Assembly: GCA_019828545.1 (NCBI GenBank)
Contig: JACVRA010000192.1
Span: 310,001-374,000 of the forward strand
Source of the DNA: Paracamarosporium sp. OC-R06-R3
Lineage: Eukaryota > Ascomycota > Dothideomycetes > Pleosporales > Didymosphaeriaceae
Length of the DNA: 64,000 nt
Reading direction: 5' to 3'
The notes under the pieces: model-generated
Told to the model about the DNA's origin: nothing
Databases searched by the model: none
What the model saw: the letters and a program-made list of their open reading frames with translations, nothing else
Translations under genes and position numbers: made by a program
Shown here: piece by piece, positions 18,408 through 49,058 of the stretch
How the letters are laid out: every line of letters starts with the position of its first letter
Numbering within the stretch: position 1 is the first letter of the stretch

Positions 18408-19468
18408 ATGCCTGGTCTTCCGTGTACGTGCTGCCGTTGCAGGACATGTCCAAGCCTGTGCTGACCTAATCCAGCTACGGTCGACCTCGACGAATGCATA
18501 TCGCGTCTGTACAAGAAGGAGCTGCTGGCCGAGTCCGTCATCGAGGCCATATGCGCAAAAACGAAAGAGCTGCTTATGAAGGAGAGTAATGTCGTGCATA
18601 TCAAGGCACCGGTCACCGTGGTCGGAGATATACACGGCCAATTCTTTGATATGATTGAGATATTCAAGATTGGCGGACCTTGTCCGGATACCAACTATTT
18701 GTTTCTTGGTACGTTGGCAGCTTTTCAATCACACGATCCCTATGACTAATCTGGCATTCAATAGGCGACTATGTAGATCGCGGTCTGTTCTCTGTTGAGA
18801 CCATCTCGCTGCTTGTGTGTCTCAAGCTACGCTACCCACACCGGGTCCACCTCATCCGCGGAAACCATGAGTCGCGCGGCGTTACGCAGTCATACGGTTT
18901 TTACACGGAGTGTTCACGAAAATACGGGAACGCGAATGTATGGCACTACTTCACAGACATGTTTGACTTCCTTACATTGTCTGTGGTTATCAACGATCAA
19001 ATCTTTTGCGTGCACGGCGGCCTTTCTCCCTCGATACACTCGATAGACCAAATCAAGATCATCGACCGGTTCAGAGAGATACCACACGAAGGGCCCATGG
19101 CAGATCTAGTGTGGAGCGACCCGGATCCCGAAAGGGATGAATTCTCGCTCAGCCCGCGAGGCGCGGGGTACACTTTTGGAGCGCAGGTGGTGAAGAAATT
19201 TTTAGAGGTGAATGCCATGTCCCACATACTACGAGCACATCAGCTATGTCAGGAAGGCTTTCAGGTACTATATGACGATCGGCTAAGTACCGTTTGGAGT
19301 GCGCCGAATTACTGTTACCGGTGCGGTAACATGGCAAGCGTACTGGAGGTCAGCGATACCGGGGAAAGATTCTTCAACGTCTTTGACGCAAGTCCCGAGA
19401 ACGACGTGCATCGGGCAGAGCAGCAACAACAGCAAGGGAGAGAGGTCACGACCGAGTACTTCCTATGA
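18408..19468 (+). CDS. ppg1: PP2A-like Ser/Thr protein phosphatase, PPG1 type
   Basis: The model is join(18408..18414?, 18475..18708, 18765..19468), about 314 residues. It belongs to the PPP family of metallophosphatases. Motifs are GDIHGQF, GDYVDRG, GNHESRG and HGGLSPS with all metal ligands, and a PP2A-like C-terminus EYFL that is a candidate for methylation. The internal string [14 protein letters not shown] matches the PPG1/SIT4-like branch better than PP2A itself. The extreme N-terminus is unsure: only a 7-base first exon (ATGCCTG, weak GTCTTC donor) keeps frame with exon 2 after the TCCAG acceptor. The stronger GTGTAC donor nearby breaks the frame. In yeast, Ppg1 acts in glycogen metabolism and with the Far complex; that role is inferred here. 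Confidence 0.88.
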
Positions 19469-29031: not shown

Positions 29032-30277
<1,246 letters not shown>

Positions 30278-30938: not shown

Positions 30939-33937
30939 ATGTCGTCCCTACTAGATGCCGCTCTCCGTTCCGATGCTGCACCTACGCCTGGTAGTGACCC
31001 AGGCGATTCGCGACGCCAGCAATTTCGGTCTTCCTCGGTGCGACCGCGCCCACCCCCGTCAGAAAGCGCAGGCGCCCATAGCGACCATGAAGGATTCGCA
31101 GACGACGAAGTTGTAGGAGCAAGAGGGGCAGGGCGGAGGGCTAATGGACCGCGAACAGACATACCGAAGGTGGTGGACGTGACCGGAGAAACGCTTTCGC
31201 AGCGGTTCCAGGAGTTCCTTGAGAGGTAAGGATGCGTCAAACATTCAAAGAAGGTATACTCATAAATGATAGCTACACAGAAGACCCAACCTCCTCGGCG
31301 CTTCCTCTTTCGAGCGTACCGGTGACGGACAAGTATTATATAGCGCAGGTCAAAGGAATGAAGCTGTACGGACTGTCCACCCTCTATGTCGACTATACAC
31401 ATCTGCAAAGGCACGAAGATGGCGTCGTGGCGGCCGCTGTTGCCAGCGAGTACTATCGATTTCTTCCATACATGATCCGCGCTTTACACAACTTGATCGC
31501 AAAGTATGAGCCACAATACTTCCGCGATCATCGGCAGCCCACGGCCACAGGCACGGCTACGGCTACTTCGAGGTCGGAACGAGCCTATGAAGAGGCAACG
31601 AACCAGAACGAGAACTTCAACGAAAAGACTGCAAACCAGCAAACGGACAAGATCTTCACGCTGGCCTTCTATAACCTACCGCTTATATCGCGCATCCGCC
31701 AATTGCGAACAGAGTCGATCGGTCGTCTGCTGTCGATTTCTGGCACTGTGACTCGCACATCAGAAGTTCGCCCTGAGCTTTCTATGGCTACCTTTATCTG
31801 CGAGGCTTGTAACACTGTCGTACCAAACGTTGAGCAGACGTTCAAATACACTGAACCGACGCAATGTCCAAACACCGTCTGTATGAATCGCGAAGGCTGG
31901 CGATTGGACATCAGACAGTCCACATTCGTTGATTGGCAGAAAGTGCGCATTCAAGAGAACAGTTCGGAGATTCCCACAGGCAGCATGCCACGCACGATGG
32001 ACGTCATTCTACGAGGAGAAATGGTAGACCGCGCCAAGGCTGGAGAAAAGTGCATATTCACAGGAACTGCCATCGTTATCCCAGATGTCAGCCAGTTCAG
32101 GGTTCCGGGTGTAAGACCACAAGCCACTAGGGACAATACTGGTGCTGCCCGTGGAAACGATGTCGGCGGGTCTGGCGTCAGTGGCCTGAAAGCTCTCGGT
32201 GTTCGTGACCTGACTTACCGCATGTCCTTTTTGGCCTGCATGGTAACCCCCGACACATCCACCCCAGGGCAATCTTCAAATCACCACATGACTGGTCAAG
32301 CGAGCAACATCCTAGCGTCGCTCAACCAAGCACAAGCAATGGAGTCCGATAAAAATGGCGAGGAAGCCCAGGCTGAATACCTCTCGACACTCACTCCAGC
32401 TGAGATTCAGGATCTGAAAGACATGGTACACAAGCCGAACATTTTCATGCGCTTAGTCGATTCCATCGCGCCAACGGTATACGGTCACCAGGTGATTAAG
32501 AAAGGTCTTCTTCTCCAGCTTATGAGCGGTGTATCGAAACAGACACCAGAAGGCATGGACCTCCGTGGCGATATCAACATCTGTATCGTTGGCGATCCAT
32601 CGACGTCCAAGTCGCAGTTCCTCAAGTACATCTGCAGCTTCCTTCCTCGGGCCGTATACACTTCTGGTAAAGCTTCTTCCGCAGCTGGTTTGACGGCTGC
32701 CGTGGTCAAAGACGAAGAGACGGGCGAATTCACAATCGAAGCTGGAGCCCTCATGCTGGCGGACAACGGTATCTGTGCGATCGACGAATTCGACAAAATG
32801 GACATCGCGGATCAAGTCGCTATCCACGAAGCCATGGAACAGCAGACCATCTCCATCGCCAAAGCTGGTATTCAAGCAACGCTGAATGCTCGGACATCCA
32901 TTCTCGCAGCTGCGAATCCCGTTGGCGGCCGCTACAACCGCAAGACCACGCTTCGAGCCAACGTCAACATGTCTGCACCCATCATGTCGCGTTTCGATCT
33001 TTTCTTTGTCGTCCTCGATGAGTGTGACGAGGACGTAGATCGCCACCTGGCAGAGCACATCGTAGGTATTCACCAGTACCGTGATGATGCAATCGAGCCG
33101 GAATTTAGCACTGAGCAACTACAACGCTACATCCGTTTCGCGCGCACGTTCAATCCCGTATTCACGGATGAGGCGAAAGATACCTTGGTGGAAAAATACA
33201 AAGAGCTCCGTGCCGACGATGCTCAAGGCGGTATCGGAAGAAACAGTTACCGTATCACAGTTCGTCAGCTAGAGAGTATGATTCGACTGTCTGAAGCAAT
33301 CGCAAAAGCCAACTGTGTTGTCGACATCACACCCGAGTTCGTCAGAGAGGCGTACAACCTCCTCCGTCAATCCATCATCAGCGTCGAGAAGGACGACGTC
33401 GAGATGGAAGACGAGGATGATGAGGCGCTTCTTGCTGCTGCTGCCGCTGTAGAGGCACAAGAGGGCGATGCAAACATGGGCGCAGACGAGCAACAAGACG
33501 GTAGGAGCGCCCGCGCTGCAAGTCGCACGCCTGCGGCGCCTCGGGAGAAGACGAAGATCACGCACGACAGGTATGTCGCTATGCGGAATCTGTTCGTCAA
33601 ACGCATCAACGAGGACCAAACCGCGACCGAAGATGGCGTCGAAGAAGAAGATCTACTCATCTGGTACCTCGAACAGAAAGAAGCCGAGTTGGAGACACAA
33701 GAGGATCTCGAGAAGGAAAGGGATCTCGCGAAGAAGGTGCTAAAGAAGGTTTGCAAGGTACGTTTCATCACTATTCCACAGACTGTAAGAAGGAACATAG
33801 ACTAACGTGTTCAACAGGAGCAATATCTCATGCAAATTCGCGGCGAGGGCTTGGCTGATGAACAGGGACAGGCGGAGGCTGCGGCGAAGGTTGTCTATGT
33901 GCTGCATCCGAACTGCCCAGTTGAAGATATTGCCTAG
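30939..33937 (+). CDS. mcm6: MCM6 replicative helicase subunit
   Basis: The model is join(30939..31225, 31273..33757, 33818..33937), 963 residues. MCM6 is one of the six ATPases of the MCM2-7 helicase that licenses and unwinds origins in the nucleus. A C4 zinc motif (CEAC and CPNTVC) precedes KVRIQENSSEIPTG. ALGVRDLTYR follows, then Walker A GDPSTSKSQF from residue 536, Walker B CAIDEFDKMD and the arginine finger MSRFDLFF. The 47-base first intron splices to give FLESYTEDPTS. The last exon gives the tail ending CPVEDIA, a winged-helix C-terminus. MCM6 is preferred over other MCMs because of the VEQTFKYTEPTQC and ALGVRDL strings. The N-terminus is disordered, as usual. Confidence 0.96.
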
Positions 33938-38187: not shown

Positions 38188-41100
38188 CTACTCCCCCTCC
38201 CCTTCCCCCTCCCCCTGGGTGTTTTGTTCACCTGTGAAAGGTTTCTCGTACGTCTCCTCGTCCCAAGGCTTGTTGTATCCTTCTTTGTTGAGATCTGCTA
38301 GAAGCAGATCTGCCAGGCGCTTGTCGTCTACATCTCCTTGGTCAGGAGCTGTCGATTGGTCCACTAAGTCGTTAGGATCACCAGAATCAAAACCACCCTC
38401 GTTAGAAGATGTTTCATCAACACCTGGTATGTGGATGTCGAACTCTTCATCAGCGACGTTCTTATCACCTGGGTTTTCCTTAGGTTTAGAGTCGTCCTGG
38501 TCCTTATGGGCCTGATCATTGCCGCTGCCAGCGATGGGCGTGTTACTCGTTGGCTCTCCGACATTCGGATCTTGTGTGGGTATGTTGGGGCGCGGTTGAA
38601 GAAAAGCGTCGCTGAGTCTATAAGATTCGCTAGGGTTCGTACCGGAAGCTTGTGCCGACGTTGGCTGCGGCCCAAATTTCTTTGTCACCCCAGGTGAGAC
38701 ATTGAGCTCGAACTTGCCGGCAGAAGGGAAAGAGAATGTCGAGCCAGGTGCTGTGGTTGTTTTAAATGGATTGTGTGGAATGCTTGGTGGCTCAGCTGGA
38801 GTACTGAGGCGCTTGGACTGGTGTTCCTCGCTGGGATCCGTATCGCGCTTGGGAGATGAACGTCTTGCTGGAAACTTTGGCTTTCGCAGCTCATATCCCT
38901 GTTTCCCCCCACCTTTCGAACTTTGGACGTTAGATTCTCTTGCAAAGCTAAATCTGGTATCGCTAAGTTTATCTAGATTGCTACCAAAACCGGTAAACGG
39001 AAATATTGATTGCGGAGCTTGATTAGTTGTCGTTTGGGTTGGCTGTTTCTTGTCGAAATGAGAAGCTTCGCCCGTCGTTGGCGAGGTAGGTGGTATACGC
39101 GGTGAGATACTGGCGGGTGTGCTTGGCTCGTCCTGAGATCGTTTCAATGTCAACGGTGCGGGACGCCCCTTGGTGTTCTTGAAAGATGTTTGGGAAAAAC
39201 TTGTCGCTGCCGCTGGGACCTCGGTTACCACTTCTTTGGGTGCATGTCCTATACCACCAGGAGCGAGAGGAGTGAAAATCTGGCCCTGCTCGAGCTTGGT
39301 CTTGGGGGTAGACTTTTGGGGTTGGTCGATGGCAGAAGTAAAGCTAGGTGTATTTTGTTTCTGGGAATTGTCTTTGCCCGAGCTCACTTTTTCTTCCTGG
39401 GCCTGGCCTGAAGACGGGTTTTCTTGCGCGAGTTGCCCCTGAGTCTGTTTTGGATCACTATGGTGAAGTCCAGGGTCGGATTCAAGCACAGATTTGGACT
39501 CATGACTTGGGAGATCATTATCACCAGACTTCTTACCCGCAATGGCCCTTCCTGAACTAACTTCTTCCGGTGCTGTAGGTGTCGGCTGGATCTCAAGCGT
39601 TGGCGTTTGCTGGATTGGATTAGAGACCTTACCCACTTTGCCTTTCTTCGAACGTCCAAACTTTGATGCCTTTGTTTCATTCGACGTAGGGCTGTTTGAC
39701 GAGTGGCTGGAAAGATTGAAAGATTGGTTTGCCGGCGACCACATGGAAGCCATCATACCCGTTGGACCAGTTGTAGTTTTGGCTCGATCAGGCCTTGAGG
39801 ATGTGGTTGTCGGTGTGGGGACACTAGTTTGTGCACCTACCTCAGCCGCTGCAGGCTTGTGCGAAGATGTCATCCTCGATCCAGTTGACGTAGGGGTACC
39901 CGATTTCGTCACCGTTTGTGCCTCGAAATGACTGCTACTAGCCTGGACATTCTCCTTTTCTCCTGCCAAAGGCTTCTCTTTCTTTTGGAGTTCGGACAGC
40001 TCAGCTTTGAAGTTTTTTAATTGCTCTTTCAATTGGTTGATTTCAGCCGCTTGTTGCGCGTTTGACTCTTTCAGTTTCGAACTATCAACCTGTAATTCGA
40101 AGAACTGGCTTCGAACTAAGATTAACTCTTTTTCGCGCTCTTGAAAGACTTTGTCTTTAGAGTCTCTAAGCTTCGTAGCCTCAGCATGCTCATGCATGAT
40201 CTTAGAATAGGACTCCTTTTCTTTCGCAAGTTCAGTTTCTACACGCCCATAATCCTCCCGGAGTTTCGAATTCTTCTTCTGTTCTGCGTCAAACTCTGTC
40301 GAAAGTCTTTCTATCTTCTCATCAGACTTCGTCTTCTCTTTTTGGGTATCAGAAAGTTGCTTTGCCAACTCATTAAGCTGTCCCCTGTCCACGGTCGATG
40401 CCTGCTGAGATTTGAGCAGCGCGTTTTCCCCCCTCAGTGATGTGAGTTCATTCCGAGCGCTGTTACGCTCCTGAGTCAGCGAATCGACGTTCTTTTGGCT
40501 TTGTACGATCTCAGCTTCCAACTCAGTAATCTTCTTTTGGGTTCTGGAATTGTCCTGAGTCAATCGTTCTCTTTGACGCTCGGAATCTTGCTGTGACTTC
40601 ACAGCGGTATCACGTCCCTCTTCGGCTGAGTTCAGGCGGACAGTGAGCTCTTCATCTTTCTTTCTCAAGTTTAAGATCTCCTCCTCCGCTTCTCCTTGCT
40701 TTTTGGCTTTCTCACGCCCTTCTCGTTGTAGCTTTTCGATTTCGGTATCCTTGTCGGACTGAACACGGGCCAACTTATTTTCCAGGCTTGTCTTCTCTCC
40801 TTGGAGGTCTCTGGACAGTTGCATTTGTTTTGTAAATCGCGAATTCATATCAAAGGATTTCCGAATTTCGTCATCTCGCACCTTGACTGCTCTCGCAAGT
40901 TGTCCCGAAAGGTCATCGGTTTGCCTTTGATAATCTTCCTGTATTTCGCGCATGCTTTTCAATTCTTTGTCCAGATGCCAGTTTCTCCGACGGAGATTCT
41001 CGTTTTCGTTGTCCGCATATTCTAGCCTCTTCTTTGATGTAGTAAGTTCTTCTTGAAGACGTTCATTATTCTTTTGTAGATTCCCGGCATCTCTCTGGGC

Positions 41101-41697
41101 AGTAACTACCTGCTTCTCTCGCTGAGCAGCTTCAGCCTGATAACGGGCAAGATGTCCCCGGTATACATTGACTTCTGTGAGGGTTTTGTCATGTTCTTGC
41201 TTGTGTGATGCGGCAGACTGTTGCGACTGAATGAGTGCTGCCTCGGTCTTTTCTAGCTTCTGCCGAAGATGAGCTACTTCGTTCTGTAATTGTGTCGCCT
41301 GCTGATTTCTCTCGGTGCCAGATATTCCGAGGCCATGTGCCGGTCCAGACGGTACCGTCGAATCACCGTGAGTTGGAGCTTGGTCGAATTTACGTTGATG
41401 GAGGTCTTGCTTCTGGTCTTGACCCAGGTCCGGTCTAACGTTGTGCTTGTTGGATTCTTTCTGGCAGCAACAGCTTACGATGATATTCAGTGCCGCTGGT
41501 GGTAGCCGTTGTGATTTGTTCTTGGTCTGTGTGCCACTGTTACTTAGTGTCTTAATTTTGCTTTGTGTTCCAATATCTCTTTGGTGTGACACGTTCTTTC
41601 TGTGGAAGTAATAGCGTGTAAACCACACGAAGGCGATAAGGATGGGTGCGTAGATGAATGAAACCACGATTCTGACGAAGAGTTTCTTGAAATCCAT
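38188..41697 (-). CDS. Membrane-anchored giant coiled-coil protein
   Basis: This single exon of 1169 codons has no intron signal. An N-terminal membrane helix (about 8-28, RIVVSFIYAPILIAFVWF) is followed by a short basic and Cys-containing segment, then a very long heptad-type coiled coil from about 130 to 590, rich in Glu, Lys, Gln and Leu. Residues 600-1090 are disordered, rich in Pro, Ser, Thr and Gln. The acidic end carries GEGEGEGE, encoded by a run of G/A-rich hexamers (38188-38217). The topology suits an ER, nuclear-envelope or Golgi-like tether, but this is inference. No named family is recognised. Confidence 0.85.
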   Translation of the reverse strand: MDFKKLFVRIVVSFIYAPILIAFVWFTRYYFHRKNVSHQRDIGTQSKIKTLSNSGTQTKNKSQRLPPAALNIIVSCCCQKESNKHNVRPDLGQDQKQDLHQRKFDQAPTHGDSTVPSGPAHGLGISGTERNQQATQLQNEVAHLRQKLEKTEAALIQSQQSAASHKQEHDKTLTEVNVYRGHLARYQAEAAQREKQVVTAQRDAGNLQKNNERLQEELTTSKKRLEYADNENENLRRRNWHLDKELKSMREIQEDYQRQTDDLSGQLARAVKVRDDEIRKSFDMNSRFTKQMQLSRDLQGEKTSLENKLARVQSDKDTEIEKLQREGREKAKKQGEAEEEILNLRKKDEELTVRLNSAEEGRDTAVKSQQDSERQRERLTQDNSRTQKKITELEAEIVQSQKNVDSLTQERNSARNELTSLRGENALLKSQQASTVDRGQLNELAKQLSDTQKEKTKSDEKIERLSTEFDAEQKKNSKLREDYGRVETELAKEKESYSKIMHEHAEATKLRDSKDKVFQEREKELILVRSQFFELQVDSSKLKESNAQQAAEINQLKEQLKNFKAELSELQKKEKPLAGEKENVQASSSHFEAQTVTKSGTPTSTGSRMTSSHKPAAAEVGAQTSVPTPTTTSSRPDRAKTTTGPTGMMASMWSPANQSFNLSSHSSNSPTSNETKASKFGRSKKGKVGKVSNPIQQTPTLEIQPTPTAPEEVSSGRAIAGKKSGDNDLPSHESKSVLESDPGLHHSDPKQTQGQLAQENPSSGQAQEEKVSSGKDNSQKQNTPSFTSAIDQPQKSTPKTKLEQGQIFTPLAPGGIGHAPKEVVTEVPAAATSFSQTSFKNTKGRPAPLTLKRSQDEPSTPASISPRIPPTSPTTGEASHFDKKQPTQTTTNQAPQSIFPFTGFGSNLDKLSDTRFSFARESNVQSSKGGGKQGYELRKPKFPARRSSPKRDTDPSEEHQSKRLSTPAEPPSIPHNPFKTTTAPGSTFSFPSAGKFELNVSPGVTKKFGPQPTSAQASGTNPSESYRLSDAFLQPRPNIPTQDPNVGEPTSNTPIAGSGNDQAHKDQDDSKPKENPGDKNVADEEFDIHIPGVDETSSNEGGFDSGDPNDLVDQSTAPDQGDVDDKRLADLLLADLNKEGYNKPWDEETYEKPFTGEQNTQGEGEGEGE

Positions 41698-42086
41698 GGT
41701 ACAACTCTTTAGGTTCTAATCCGTCGTTGATGTACACTTCACAATAGCTTGAGGTATTTCAGCTTCGTAGGGCAAGAAGCAGAATCAAAAGGACGGAAAT
41801 TATTTTGCACCAGCTAGTTATACCTGCAACACAAAGGAGAAAGTTTGCTGGCGCCCAGTATGTCGGTTTGCTAGAGAGACAAAGAATGAGGCAACGCCAT
41901 CACCGCATGTTATCACAAAGCACTACGAAGGCACTCACCACGAGTGCTTCATCTTGTACAGAGCTTAGATCAAGCCCTAGATTCCCGTAGACAATGGAAA
42001 CTAAACGAATGACTTGAATTGGCTATGCCCACTGTCAATAGTGTGCGCTTAATAAATCCGTACACGTCTTTTTCCATGATATTACC
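41698..42086. promoter_or_regulatory. Intergenic region upstream of the coiled-coil gene
   Basis: This 389-base gap between two minus-strand genes contains the promoter of the coiled-coil gene and the 3' flank of the fusion gene. I see nothing specific. Confidence 0.35.
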
Positions 42087-45000
42087 TCAATGCACTGAGG
42101 CATCTCCCCGTCTACTCATACCACCAGCCACTGCGCTTGCCTGTAGCCTGAAAGCCCTTAAACTTCCCGTCATACTCCTTGAGCGCATATGCGCTGCGTC
42201 CATTGGCGACATCTCGCGCGAATTGTCCTCTCGAATAGGCGGACGTTGCACAGAGCGAGCACGATCATAAATGTGTGCCGACTCGATGGCACTATGAGGT
42301 GGTGATGAAGGCCCATTGTGGCTTGGCTTGGGGCGTGTGTTCATCTTATTCATCAAAGCCGACATTGTAGCAGCTGGCGATAGTTGTGTGGGAACAGTGG
42401 CGTTCTGTTCAGAGCTACCAGTATTTCGGCGCTGGAGTGCTGTACCATGGTTTTCTGTGATTGTGTTGCGCCTTAGTAGATTCCCATGACGGCTTGTGAT
42501 TGAAGGCGAGCGGCTTGCTGAGCGACTGGAAGGTGGTGTGGGAAGTCCATTGGCTGCCTGTGGAATGGATCCATACGTCTGCATTAGTTGCTCGAGATTG
42601 ATGGCCTGAGGAAGTTTGCTTAATCGACGAATGGCGCGTTTATTATCGTTGATAAACGTTGACATTGCCTTCAGTGCATTGCTTTGATTGTGCTGTTCGT
42701 ACGCAGGAGCGCCATCGGTTGTGTTCATGGCCCTCGCTGCATGTTGTTCGTTCAAATCCATGGCGCGATGCGATCGCAGATCGGCATGCTCGAGTTTCAT
42801 TTCGATTTGAGAGACGACTTGATCGAAATCCACATGCTCCCGGATAGCAGGCTGGTACGTAAGCGAAGTCCCGATGGTGACGTTGCTGGATAAGACAAAG
42901 AAAGAGCCGTCACGGATTTTCCTTTTAAGAATGTTCCAACGAGCGCGGGCCGGGTTCCTCTCCATTTCAGGCTGGAACACTGAGAGTCGGGCAAGCTTAG
43001 TGTAGAAGCCTTCAAGTCGCTTAGCCATGCGCTCCAAAACCTGCATAAGGAATGCAGAAAGGGCAGCGATGCGTTGGCTGTCCGAGACAGCATCAAGCTC
43101 CATTATGGTGCTGAAAGCATCCATACCGGTACAGGCTTCATCCCGAATAGCTTCTAAGAACTCCATATCATACTGAACTGAGCGTTGAGCATAAGCAATG
43201 ATGCCCTTTTCATGATGCCGAGCAGATTCGCTGTTACATGTGAATTGCCCAATCTGCGAAATCTCATTCGACGCCTTGACAGCATCAGTAGACCCTTTGG
43301 CACGAGCGATGATGCCAAGGACGTCGGGGAGCTTCGAAGGAGTCGCAGACGAAGCGGCGTTTGCAAATGCGAACGAAATTTTCAGATACATCTCCTGTAG
43401 TTTGGGTCCAAACAGTGCAGAGAAGGCACCCTGGAGCAGCCGGGACTGGTAATGATAGAACCTGCGAACACCACCCATGTTAAAGAGTTCGCCCTGGAAC
43501 CACACAATGGAAGATTCCATGATCATGCCGACTTCAAAGTGAGAGGCCACGACCTGCTCAGTAGCAACTCGAAGGAAACTGTTCCAGAGGTCGTACATCA
43601 CTCCAATCTCCTCGGAGTGATAGACAGGCTTCGGTGTTAACTCTCCAATGTAGTATTTAGTGAGAAGTGACGATACTTCAGGGTTATTTGTATGCGCAAG
43701 AAGGTCGAAGGATTTTGAGCAATCGACACCACCATTGGACTTGATGATATTCGTGCCTGTGTACGTTAGCTTGAACTTTCTGGCGAATATATCCGAGCCT
43801 TAGACCTACCGCCTGGATGCATGGGACAAAAGTCCGTCACGTCGTAGACTTTGCCATGTACGCCAATCCAAACACGAGAACCTGGTGTGTGTCCAGTGTG
43901 CACCGCAAGCTGAGAAAGCGATATAGTTGGTTGATTGCACGGCAAAGGCTTAGGGGTCATGAACACGTCGAGCATGAATCGTCGTTCGGCGAAGGCTGTA
44001 GTGAGGATGGATTCTACAGTCTCCATCGTAGGCGAGCGGTGGTTATAGAGGGCTTTGCGGATACCGGACATGACGGAATCGAAGACACCGACTGAACCGC
44101 AGACGTAGAGATACCCTCCAATGCCCCCCTGTTTCTTACTCATGACCTAATGAAGGAGATTCTCAGCATATACCATCGATCGTTCTTACGAGAAGTTATG
44201 CTTACCAAGTCACAAATAGATTGCCCTTGCTCTACAATAAGGCTGTCGATATATCGTGGCGGGGTTTCCTTTTCCACTAGGTCTTGAGAAATAGGGTCGT
44301 AAACCAAGCCTCTTGAGTCACGGGAGAAGGCTATGTGAACTTCCATCAAACCTTCGTTGACATATTGACGAAGCTCTGACTCGTAGCAAAGTTTCTCTCG
44401 GGACTGAACACCTAAGTAAAGTGAGGTTCTGCCCCAGGTTCGACCGCACCGAGCCTGCCAAAAGCTCCTGAACGGCGCGATGCCGCTGCCACCAGCGAAG
44501 AGTGCCACAGGCGAGGTATCGTCGAACGGAAGGTGGAACGCAAAGGGTCGAGATACACCTATTAGCAACTCCTCATCGTCAAGGACATCCAGCTCGTCTC
44601 CTACGGGCGGGTTGAGGAAGCCACTGCTGACTCCGTGTCGCATAATCTTGGTATTACCGGCAAATGTCGAGCAGAGTTCGTAGTTAGACCGTGAGATAGT
44701 CAGGTCGACAGTGCCTGGAGCGATTAAAAAAGTTTCTCAATCATTAGGGAAGCTGGAGCTTACTTGGCAGGAGCTCATCGGAGTGTGTGGAGATACTATA
44801 TGTCCTTGGCACTTCAATGGGAATCAAGTCTGCCAACCATGACAGATTTCCAGACAGATCAAAAGCTTGATCCCAAATGCGAGTCGGAGTATCTTGGACA
44901 GCCGCCTGGAGCAAGTCCCCTAAAGAGGCACGTACTGGCCATTCGTTTGTCGCGAGAACTTGGAGAACCGTATTCGAGGATGCTCTCAGCATCGTATGCA

Positions 45001-47089
45001 GTTTCGTTGCGAGTTCCTGAGTGATCGGCGCCAAATGACCCTTGCGCAGTATATCGATAACTGTAAGCTGAGGCTTTCCAGAGCGGGTCACACTAGCGAT
45101 ATGGTCAGCATATCGTGACCAAATACGGTTGAGTGTAACAGTATCTTCCAGCATGGAATCGAGGCCAAGAGCCGCAGCGACTTTGGCACACTCAGTCCAT
45201 GAGTTCATCGGCATGACTGCAAGTCTATCGCCAGGCTGAAACGTGATGCCTGCCTCTTGGATGTCGAGAGTGACCAAGGCGATGGACCGTGATGGATCTG
45301 AGTCAACGAAGTTTCGGCTGAGGATACGACCACGGTAACGGCACTCTTCGAAGGTGCCACGGATTTCGTGTGGTTCAATGTCGCGATTCCCTCGGAAAGG
45401 CTCCAGACGCTCTTTCATAGACGCTGAGAATTCGTGATGAGTCTGCTCCCACGGCCGCAAGTCATTGGCAGCCCCAGAAGCGCCGTTAGTTTCGGTACGA
45501 CCAGTCTTCCCAGCGCACTCCAGAAGCTACAACATGGTAAGCGGACAGCAGACTTCGTGGAAACGTGCCGCACTTACACCAAAAACCTTGTAGCGATGAA
45601 CGCCCATGAAGCCTCGCTCACCAGTATAAGCTTCGACGATCCCATCAAAGACGCCCATGAGTCTAGAATCTCCAGAGGCTTTGACGTATTCTGGGATGCT
45701 GTAGTGATACTCTATGGCGGCGATGAATGCGCGAAGATTTGAAGGAAGCCATGCTCGCAGATGAACACCCTCAGCACCGAGGAAAGAATCGTACTTCTTC
45801 CGTCCAAGGAATGCATCCATAACAAGATATCTGTAATTCGTTAGATGAGAAGATACTAGAATGAGATTGGCCACGTACGGAGGAAATTGTAGACCAGAAG
45901 TGGCAGGGCATCTCTTCGACAACGGTGCGGAAAACTTGGCCCATCGAACCCATTCTGCAGGCGAAACGTAGTTTTCCCCTGATCCAGCTAGCGAGATTGT
46001 ATGAAATGCTTGCGGCATGCGCTCGAGGATTTCTTTGAGACGGATGAGCTCGCGCAGAAGGCCTTCATTGTTTCTGTTCATTACATGCTCCTGGCACGCA
46101 GCAATAGCATCAGGCCCATGCTGAAAACTTGCAGATGTTTCGGCACATCCCTTCAAGAAGGCTCGCTCGGCGCCATCGCCAAACATAGCCCAACGTAGTC
46201 TCTACATGATGTCAGCTGTGGTTTGCAAACCTCAAGGGACACATACAGTGTTGTCAAATCGACCAACATAGGGATAGTCTGACAGTGGGTCAATGTAATC
46301 CACGTTATAGGATGACTGGTCGAAGAAGGTAAGGTGCGGAATCGATCTGCCCATGCGGATACAAATTTGAACGTAAGGTAGCCCGATGCTACGAGGGATC
46401 CCTTTGACTTCGTCACCCAGACCGTCACTCATCGGTACACCATCCAGTCTGAGAGGTTTTGCGGAGACGTTGATCCCTTCGTTGCCATCGTGCCTCTCCT
46501 CATATCGATAGATCGAGCAGAGCATCCCTAATGCAACGAGTGCTGCCCAGAGTGCCTTATCAGGAATGATGTCGGCACTGCCCTCGACGATTGGCAGTGC
46601 AGCCACTGACTCTCGCACACGGCCGCGAGCAATGCAACCCGGCATTCTTTCGCAGAGGTCCATCCACACCCTTCCAGGTGAGTTTCTCAACGCACCAGGT
46701 GCTTCACTGGTATCTGGAGGCTGAAAACCGTATTCAACACTGAGGTAGCCATCCCGCCAGCCAGTACTCGGGCCCACCTCTTCTGCTCGCAGGATCACCT
46801 GGCGAGCAGGAGCCCCCAGAGCAACAGCTAACAGATCTCGTTCATCTACATTAAGCTTGTCAAGGCTTTTCACACCCTTGGCGTTCTGGATGGCTTTGAT
46901 CTCGTCCATTGAAGGAACACTAGAGTAGAGCAGCTCGTTGATGGCTTTGCGTTCCCTTCGCTTAATTAGATAGGTCAACAGCATGTGATCAAACAAACAT
47001 GCCTTTGCCGGAGAAAATCCTCTACATTCGAAGTGTGTGGGATCTGATGGGTGTGAGTATGAATTATAAGGAACCTGAGGGGAAAACAT
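42087..47089 (-). CDS. Fusion: IDO/PrnB-like haem domain + NADPH/FAD reductase + cytochrome b5
   Basis: Seven exons: complement(42087..43756, 43810..44146, 44206..44714, 44764..45526, 45578..45830, 45879..46201, 46247..47089), 1565 residues. Residues 1-470 match the indoleamine-dioxygenase/PrnB superfamily (DUF1864 style): GYLSVEYGFQP, YVGRFDNT, TSASFQHGPDAI, GERGFMGVHRYKVFG. Residues 500-920 form a reductase of cytochrome-P450-reductase type: RTYSIST (FAD, about 715), AGGSGIAPFRSF (NADPH, about 801) and CGSVGVF (about 913). No flavodoxin domain precedes it. At 980-1050 lies a cytochrome b5 domain with MHPGG (His1007) and His1031, whose 24-residue spacing is that of classical b5. Residues 1050-1300 are helical and of unknown type, and the rest is disordered. 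The likely role is a self-contained NADPH-driven haem oxygenase; the substrate is unknown. All junctions restore family-like sequence and frame. The start at 47089 (MFSPQVP) is the least certain part. Confidence 0.88.
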
Positions 47090-47253
47090 CTTACCCCAAA
47101 CGCAGCGTGCAAGTCTCCTGGCTGTGCAAATCCTGAAAGAGTGCACCCTCGAGGGCCAGTCCGGCTGCTTCTCTTGCTTCCAGGAGCAGATCTAGGGCAA
47201 ACACCACCCGCTCGACCAGACACTGGGCACCCCGACGCTGACATCGAGGACAT
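46975..47253 (-). other. Upstream ORF overlapping the start of the fusion gene
   Basis: A 92-codon frame starts at ATG 47253 (MSSMSASGCPVSG) and ends after the proposed fusion start, in another frame. If the leader is transcribed, it would be an overlapping upstream ORF and could lower translation. An alternative is a leader intron: GTAAGA at 47095 and CATCAG at 47045 bound 51 bases that can be removed without a frame change. A further frame here reads CPRCQRRGAQC, like half of a Zn2Cys6 cluster. Confidence 0.35.
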
Positions 47254-49058
47254 CTTGGATTAGACAAAAATAGATTTTGGGTAACCTGCCCTGAGAAAGT
47301 AAGAAGAGAATGAAAAGACTTGCAAAGTCTGGTTGTGATTAAGAAAGTCCGTCAAGAATGATAGTCCAGATGGGGGAGCATCAAGCTGCAAACCACAGAA
47401 GATGAGGTGCAGAGCATGTCTCCTTTGAGGCGGCTGGGCGTAGCGCAGAGCCGCCCACGAATGCTCACATTCAACTTGTCATGCCAAGAGACTTTTCCGC
47501 GATGAACGTGCCGACTGGAGGAACAAGGTTAGGTACAGACTTGGCTGGAACAAGAGACACTTTCTACGGTGGAGCTTGAGCCGCTTGACTGGTGGGCGGA
47601 AGCTGTCCGCTCTCGGCTAACCAGACACTCGGAGAATGCACCGTGCCGCGACGGCCATCTAGCCGCTTCGAGGAGAGCGACACATCTTGTGGTAAAACTT
47701 TGGCGTAACCCACGTGTGTGAAGCGACGTGTGTACTTACGCGTCACTCTGTTTCCAGCGGCTGTGAGGGCGCTGGGCGGCACGTGTTCGGAGACCAGACC
47801 AGAACTGGCCTTAGATCGAAACACCTTGGGATTGCCTCACATGCCAACTCCCTCTTGACGACCAATTCTCAGCGCCTGTGTTCTCGATTGAGTGCGAAAC
47901 ATGGCTTGTAATGGTTGGGAAACTCCAAATTTGCGAGATTTTCTCCGTTGTCCATCGTCCGCAGGTAACTCGACACAAGCGCCAAAATTTTACATTTGAG
48001 CATGGAGTATGATCAATGATCGCGATCCTAAATTCAAAATGATATGGCAGGAAGACTCGTATGGTATATCGACAGTGATATACGAGGCAATATGACTAAG
48101 GCCGACCCCCGGATGTTTCAAACCTGAGGCCTCCGCCAAGAACGCAATGGCGCGTCTGGAAACTGTGACAACCGCAGAGCATCCACCTGCAATCTCAGAA
48201 TTTTTTTGATGGGTATTTACCAGTTTCAATTGCCATGCTCACGATCCTATGAAATCATTATAGGTGGTCTCGCGTTGAGCCATAGCACAAACATGCGACT
48301 TCGTCCAGCCCGCAAACATGTCAGCTAGAGGTTCCAGGTCTGCGGCAACAGCTTGAAGGATTTGGAGGATTTAGAATTACCTCTAATTATCCTTTAGAGT
48401 ATCAATTAGCTAATTAAAACATACCTGCTCAACCCCGCATATAAGTCCCTAACGCGAGTCCCGCTATGCGTTATCTGGTATGCATAGTTGTATAATATAA
48501 TATAGTTAGTACTTAGCTCAACTCGATCAGATCCACCCTTGCATAAAGAGTCCGTTCATCCCTATGTGCACTAACAAAACTCATCAATATCTATCACAGA
48601 GCTTTACCATACTTTATCCCACACTTGTTCGGTTCATCAGAGCCAGCATACTAATACCAGTAACAGCATCCGTTCAAATTTTCGAACGTATACCCTGACT
48701 GAACTGCATTGCTTGAGCAGTGCAGAGTTGATACAATTTGTAACAACCGAGATGGATATAATGACCTATAGTTGATGACCTATGACTCAAATTACTCTGT
48801 TTGGACATTGTCAGATACGATGGGCTGCCTCTAAAATTTTCAGGACCTATCGTTTACTACTAGGCCGGCATCGATCAGTATATAGCTAGCGTATACAAGT
48901 GTTCGAGCCGACTAGACCTTCTGAATTCTCGCCGCAATATTTCCAAGTACCTGTTCCTAACCAGCAGTCTCGATTGCCGTTGAGAGGTTTCCTCCTTACT
49001 TAAGCATGTAGCATCACACCTCACCCCCTTCCCTACCATACCACGCAACCACCCCCTC
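47254..49058. other. Large intergenic region, A/T-rich in part
   Basis: This 1.8 kb stretch contains no gene that I can support. From about 48360 to 48800 it is clearly richer in A and T, with TA-rich runs (for example ATAATATAATATAG near 48495), unlike the surrounding DNA. This could be the remains of an old repeat eroded by mutation, but I see no terminal repeats or transposase remains. Frames at 47564-47911 and 47990-48229 look random. Confidence 0.4.

Follow-up and report, generated by a model that had tools for sequence, protein, structure and literature searches.

A fungal protein uniting an IDO-fold haem domain, a CPR-type reductase and cytochrome b5 in one chain: a candidate self-sufficient haem oxygenase

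Within a 64,000-nucleotide (nt) stretch of the Paracamarosporium sp. OC-R06-R3 genome (GenBank assembly GCA_019828545.1, contig JACVRA010000192.1, positions 310,001 to 374,000; hereafter the window), we identified a minus-strand gene whose single spliced frame stays open through an IDO-fold haem domain, a CPR-type FAD/NADPH reductase and a cytochrome b5, in this order. It is reasonably probable that the encoded protein acts as a self-sufficient IDO-family haem oxygenase, with electrons passing from NADPH through FAD and the b5 haem to the IDO haem, and with a substrate that is probably not L-tryptophan.

Gene structure

The presence of these modules in one spliced frame had been proposed in an earlier note on this DNA, and it was borne out by Pfam matches in the same order. 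The 1565-amino acid (aa) length given there, with six introns, was also reproduced (GT-AG, 45-59 nt), but the N-terminus was wrong and two introns had been missed. The start then assumed, ATG 47089, falls inside intron 1 (47094-47044), while alignment with homologues (P0001, P0003 and others) reveals a further exon upstream and places the gene start at ATG 47253; this codon is held by the open reading frame 46975..47259, which opens just two codons upstream of it. The first 44 residues of the former model had to be replaced, and from residue 45 onward (residue 67 here) both models are identical. Residues are numbered after the corrected protein, i.e., the former number plus 22. The corrected gene comprises 1587 codons with zero internal stops, and all 8 introns are 45-59 nt long. 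Its features are as follows.

42087..47253, minus strand: coding part of the corrected gene, 9 exons, 8 introns, 1587 aa (splice model and N-terminal homology)
47253-47095, 47043-47003, 46955-46247, 46201-45879, 45830-45578, 45526-44764, 44714-44206, 44146-43810, 43756-42087, minus strand: exons of the corrected gene
47095..47253, minus strand: exon 1, absent from the former model, encoding a leader that contains Cys, with two Cys-Pro motifs (aligned with P0001, P0003 and others; Cys-Pro counts among homologues)
47094-47044, minus strand: intron 1, GT-AG, 51 nt
46956..47002, minus strand: intron 2, GC-AG, 47 nt, keeping the frame that aligns with homologues; flanking exons supported by homology
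45392..46819, minus strand: IDO-fold haem domain, aa ~113-540, spanning exons 3-6
45596..45598, minus strand: His489, candidate proximal haem ligand corresponding to human IDO1 His346 (MAFFT alignment and conservation)
44674..45319, minus strand: FAD-binding module of CPR/CysJ/NOS type, aa ~565-763, RTYS motif, spanning an intron (PF00667)
43949..44595, minus strand: NADPH-binding module, aa ~790-985, with GGSGIAPFR, FSRD and VCGS, spanning an intron (PF00175 and motif counts)
43638..43915, minus strand: cytochrome b5 domain, aa ~997-1071, His1029 (HPGG) and His1053, spanning an intron
42909..43613, minus strand: C-terminal helical domain, aa ~1080-1314 (AlphaFold2 block, pLDDT, i.e., predicted local distance difference test, 69-96, mostly above 85)

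One gene and a conserved fungal family

A search of 5.8 billion proteins returned 313 homologues at E <= 0.001. The counts below rest on the best 120 of these 313 matches, and motif counts out of 121 are those plus the studied protein. Identity of the best 120 ranges from 59 to 91%, and a chance origin of the fused frame can be excluded on the strength of these numbers. IDO, FAD_binding_1, NAD_binding_1 and Cyt-b5 occur together in 117 of the 120 listed homologues (exceptions: P0024, P0068 and P0081), and equally many have lengths of 1440-1700 aa (all but P0024, P0030 and P0055).

The joined model was predicted from DNA, and two adjacent genes joined in error are one alternative. However, the helix that closes the IDO fold at its C-terminus (about aa 520-540) lies in exon 6 (aa 496-749) together with the FAD module, exon 8 (aa 920-1031) links the last part of the NADPH module to the b5 half with HPGG, and exon 9 carries the remaining b5 half and the C-terminal domain, so that the module junctions are independent of any intron call. 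Because neighbouring modules share exons and the joined architecture recurs in 117/120 homologues, we regard this as a single gene and reject the two-gene alternative, the probability of which is practically nil.

The top two matches come from Karstenula rhodostoma (90% identity) and Didymosphaeria variabile (91%), both Didymosphaeriaceae of the Pleosporales. The Phaeomoniella chlamydospora homologue (P0043) is from a Eurotiomycete, and the remaining named ones, judging from species names, presumably belong to Dothideomycetes, Leotiomycetes and Sordariomycetes. The fused architecture is conserved in many filamentous fungi. In databases, the listed homologues frequently go under 'hypothetical protein', 'sulfite reductase flavoprotein alpha-component' or 'NADPH--hemoprotein reductase', and P0060 is named 'putative indoleamine 2,3-dioxygenase'. 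A search for stand-alone relatives of the IDO domain yielded 76 proteins, which by identity and Pfam content resemble fragments of the same fused family, and no bacterial or archaeal relative of this domain was confirmed in one scan with two peptide patterns (31 stretches).

The IDO-fold haem domain

The 1565-aa model matches the IDO family PF01231 (E 2.3e-10, 40.2 bits against a cut-off of 26, residues 117-350 of that model), and so do 10/10 fragments of the fused family at E <= 1. The structure prediction that the earlier note had proposed placed the haem domain within the IDO fold, which extends across the whole domain at about 20% identity to IDO structures. Of the label given there, IDO/PrnB, the matches bear out IDO itself; the four families matched at E <= 1 did not include DUF1864/PrnB, the presence of its model in the library being unchecked.

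His489, conserved in 120/121 sequences (the remaining one has a gap), is the candidate haem ligand and probably the actual one. We take Phe226, Arg231 and the GGSxxQSS loop of human IDO1 to be tryptophan-site elements. None of these was found in the alignment of the fusion with IDO1, where Gly378, Ser383 and ATSGLQF stand opposite them in a poorly aligning stretch. A family-specific segment, KFSAPLSKR, is exact in 96/121 sequences. L-tryptophan is probably not the substrate; a different small molecule, probably aromatic or indole-like, would take its place.

The family match and the fold would also suit an ordinary tryptophan/indoleamine 2,3-dioxygenase of the kynurenine pathway equipped with its own priming reductase, and IDO1 is reported in PMC4032907 to need reduction by b5, CPR and NADPH. 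Against this, Phe226/Arg231 and the GGSxxQSS loop were not found in the fusion, the same genome has two canonical IDOs with strong matches (441 and 386 bits) besides a third with a weak one, and kynurenine-pathway families are lacking among the ten neighbouring frames scanned (0/10). We consider this alternative quite improbable. As a separate observation, the third stand-alone IDO locus (L018, G000 C13:62800-64900) is divergent, with the canonical Arg kept and the loop altered (GESGANDS).

The reductase and cytochrome b5 modules

Besides IDO, the 1565-aa model matches FAD_binding_1, NAD_binding_1 and Cyt-b5, and Pfam, structure matches and motif counts agree on the presence of a CPR-type FAD module and a CPR-type NADPH module, both with their motifs conserved. 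The cofactor motifs are nearly invariant across the family (RTYSI, for example, in 121/121 sequences). With CPR, NOS reductase and sulfite reductase flavoprotein the fusion shares an FAD module with RxYS and an NADPH module with GxGxAPFR, SR and CG motifs. Unlike in these enzymes, no FMN (flavodoxin) domain was found, either in the 1565-aa model at E <= 1 or in the precomputed domain annotation of the best 120 homologues; the IDO domain occupies the region preceding the FAD module, and cytochrome b5 comes after the reductase instead. The b5 domain keeps the fold and both haem histidines of cytochrome b5, although here it is an internal domain of a large protein; the residues formerly designated His1007 and His1031 (His1029 and His1053) are indeed the HPGG histidine and its partner.

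The best solved-structure sequence match of the FAD module is the nNOS reductase (1f20, E 3e-14), which, together with the coupling of haem and flavoreductase for NO dioxygenation in flavohaemoglobins (described in PMC3820574) and the name of P0053 ('related to nitric-oxide synthase, salivary gland'), could point to a fungal nitric oxide synthase analogue or an NO dioxygenase. However, the reductase resembles CPR, CysJ and BM3 about equally well, its best Foldseek match being the FAD domain of P450 BM3 (4dqk), no FMN domain was detected, and the haem domain has the IDO fold and matches PF01231, with no other haem-oxygenase family, the NOS oxygenase domain included, at E <= 1. Such a function is very improbable. 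Two publications deal with fungal genes resembling NOS (PMC4948021 and PMC10889981); in the passages considered, the term 'cytochrome b5' is absent from both, as is 'indoleamine' from PMC10889981.

Proposed electron path

The earlier interpretation is supported in part. The anatomy, predicted fold, conserved cofactor motifs and single gene stand as described above, and we infer cofactor loading, the order of electron flow, oxygenase activity and the substrate class. In the proposed mechanism, which is the simplest interpretation, NADPH would pass electrons to the FAD of the reductase. Cytochrome b5 would take over the role of one-electron carrier from an FMN domain, none being detectable, and the b5 haem would then reduce the IDO-fold haem to the ferrous, O2-binding state. 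Human IDO1, according to PMC4032907, needs reduction to the ferrous form, which is done by cytochrome b5, P450 reductase and NADPH; the same source describes the cellular reductant as debated, from superoxide through to cytochrome b5 with P450 reductase. The fusion has the same three kinds of components, and would unite in one chain the partner kinds that reduce IDO1 in human cells; in contrast to the human system, the fungal components are fused, and the canonical substrate-site motifs were not found. In comparison with IDO1, IDO2 and fungal IDOs (PF01231), the fusion adds the reductase and b5. Like P450 BM3 (CYP102A1), NOS and flavohaemoglobin, it carries a haem domain and an NAD(P)H flavoreductase in one chain; unlike them, it has an IDO-family haem domain, b5 instead of FMN and an additional orphan helical domain.

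Several points weigh against a self-sufficient oxygenase. The case rests on sequence and predicted structure. MAFFT pairs His489 with human IDO1 His346 only across a 3-residue gap, and in a global profile alignment (hhalign) His489 and the canonical His are not paired. The stretch corresponding to Phe226, Arg231 and the loop aligns poorly, with IDO1 Thr379 landing on Ala514; pLDDT is about 50-70 both there and around His489, and the b5 part of the large structure model is of low confidence. Moreover, a dioxygenase needs electrons for priming only, and dioxygenation therefore does not strictly explain a fused reductase; in a dioxygenase version, the chain would be used solely for priming and for re-reduction after autoxidation. 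The conservation of a covalently attached reductase may mean that electrons are consumed per turnover. A broader proposal, which we put forward only tentatively as a possible but doubtful one, is that these proteins are widespread NADPH-driven monooxygenases built on the IDO fold, with b5 substituting for the FMN domain, electrons spent at each turnover instead of on priming, and a conserved fungal metabolite other than tryptophan as the substrate.

Leader and C-terminal regions

Among 68 judgeable homologues, 57 have exactly two Cys-Pro motifs in the leader, 6 have one and 5 none (52/120 were set aside, 26 being short and 26 unanchored). These motifs resemble haem-regulatory motifs. They bear on the main rival, in which the IDO fold would be a haem-binding sensor of O2, NO or haem with no oxygenase activity, gating an NADPH-FAD-b5 reductase for external acceptors, e.g., lipid-modifying enzymes or P450s. 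The failure to find tryptophan-site motifs, the position of cytochrome b5 and the orphan helical domain after the reductase and the reductase names of many homologues are in line with such a sensor as well; however, the good conservation of the IDO domain, largely shared by KFSAPLSKR, would fit a catalytic pocket, and a haem-regulatory role of Cys-Pro is only putative. We judge a sensor unlikely.

The last ~500 residues, which lie beyond the earlier description, consist of a ~235-aa predicted helical domain and a tail (the last ~270 residues) that is mostly poorly conserved. For the helical domain, no Pfam family was matched by the sequence from the window at E <= 10, and the matches of other family members were stray ones (best E 0.097). 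A profile search retrieved 27 proteins, each without a Pfam domain or with b5 only, and within the searches made the domain appears to be confined to the fused family. A sequence-profile comparison with the PDB gave one weak match (3k60, E 0.22), and the structural match lists for this region were filled by b5. It is a guess that the helical domain docks b5 or a partner.

Genomic neighbourhood

Ten neighbouring open frames were scanned, of which seven matched families (aldehyde dehydrogenase, IF-2B, MCM, Metallophos, M28 peptidase, HAD and DAO), mostly of housekeeping type, and three matched none. No cluster signature was present among them, and a biosynthetic cluster was rejected. The following frames were also recorded.

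18746-19465 and 29494-30108, plus strand: a pair of open frames with the common motif DYVDRG.FSVET, the second matching Metallophos; judging from this, a segment of 11.4 kilobases (kb) seems to hold two Ser/Thr-phosphatase-like genes
31223-33802, plus strand: MCM6-like replicative helicase gene
38188-41715, minus strand: 1175-aa open frame that matched no Pfam family; by eye, it begins with a hydrophobic stretch, has a part resembling a coiled coil and ends in a tail of low complexity

Significance

In the human system, IDO1, cytochrome b5 and P450 reductase are reportedly three separate proteins (Maghzal, 2008, cited in PMC4032907). The fusion was not described in the titles and abstract starts of the literature matches listed, which is weak evidence of absence, most subscription journals being beyond reach. 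The fused architecture is already visible in the precomputed Pfam annotation of the homologues; what is new here is the recognition of a coherent, conserved enzyme and the function proposed for it. This is a conserved, predicted haem enzyme of filamentous fungi, to which databases often give the label of a hypothetical protein, an NADPH--hemoprotein reductase or a sulfite reductase flavoprotein, and no characterisation of which was found in the searches made. A natural fusion of IDO, reductase and b5 turns the debated IDO reduction chain into a single, testable object. If electrons are used stoichiometrically, it would represent a new type of self-sufficient oxygenase and, should the monooxygenase proposal be true, the IDO counterpart of P450 BM3 and NOS.
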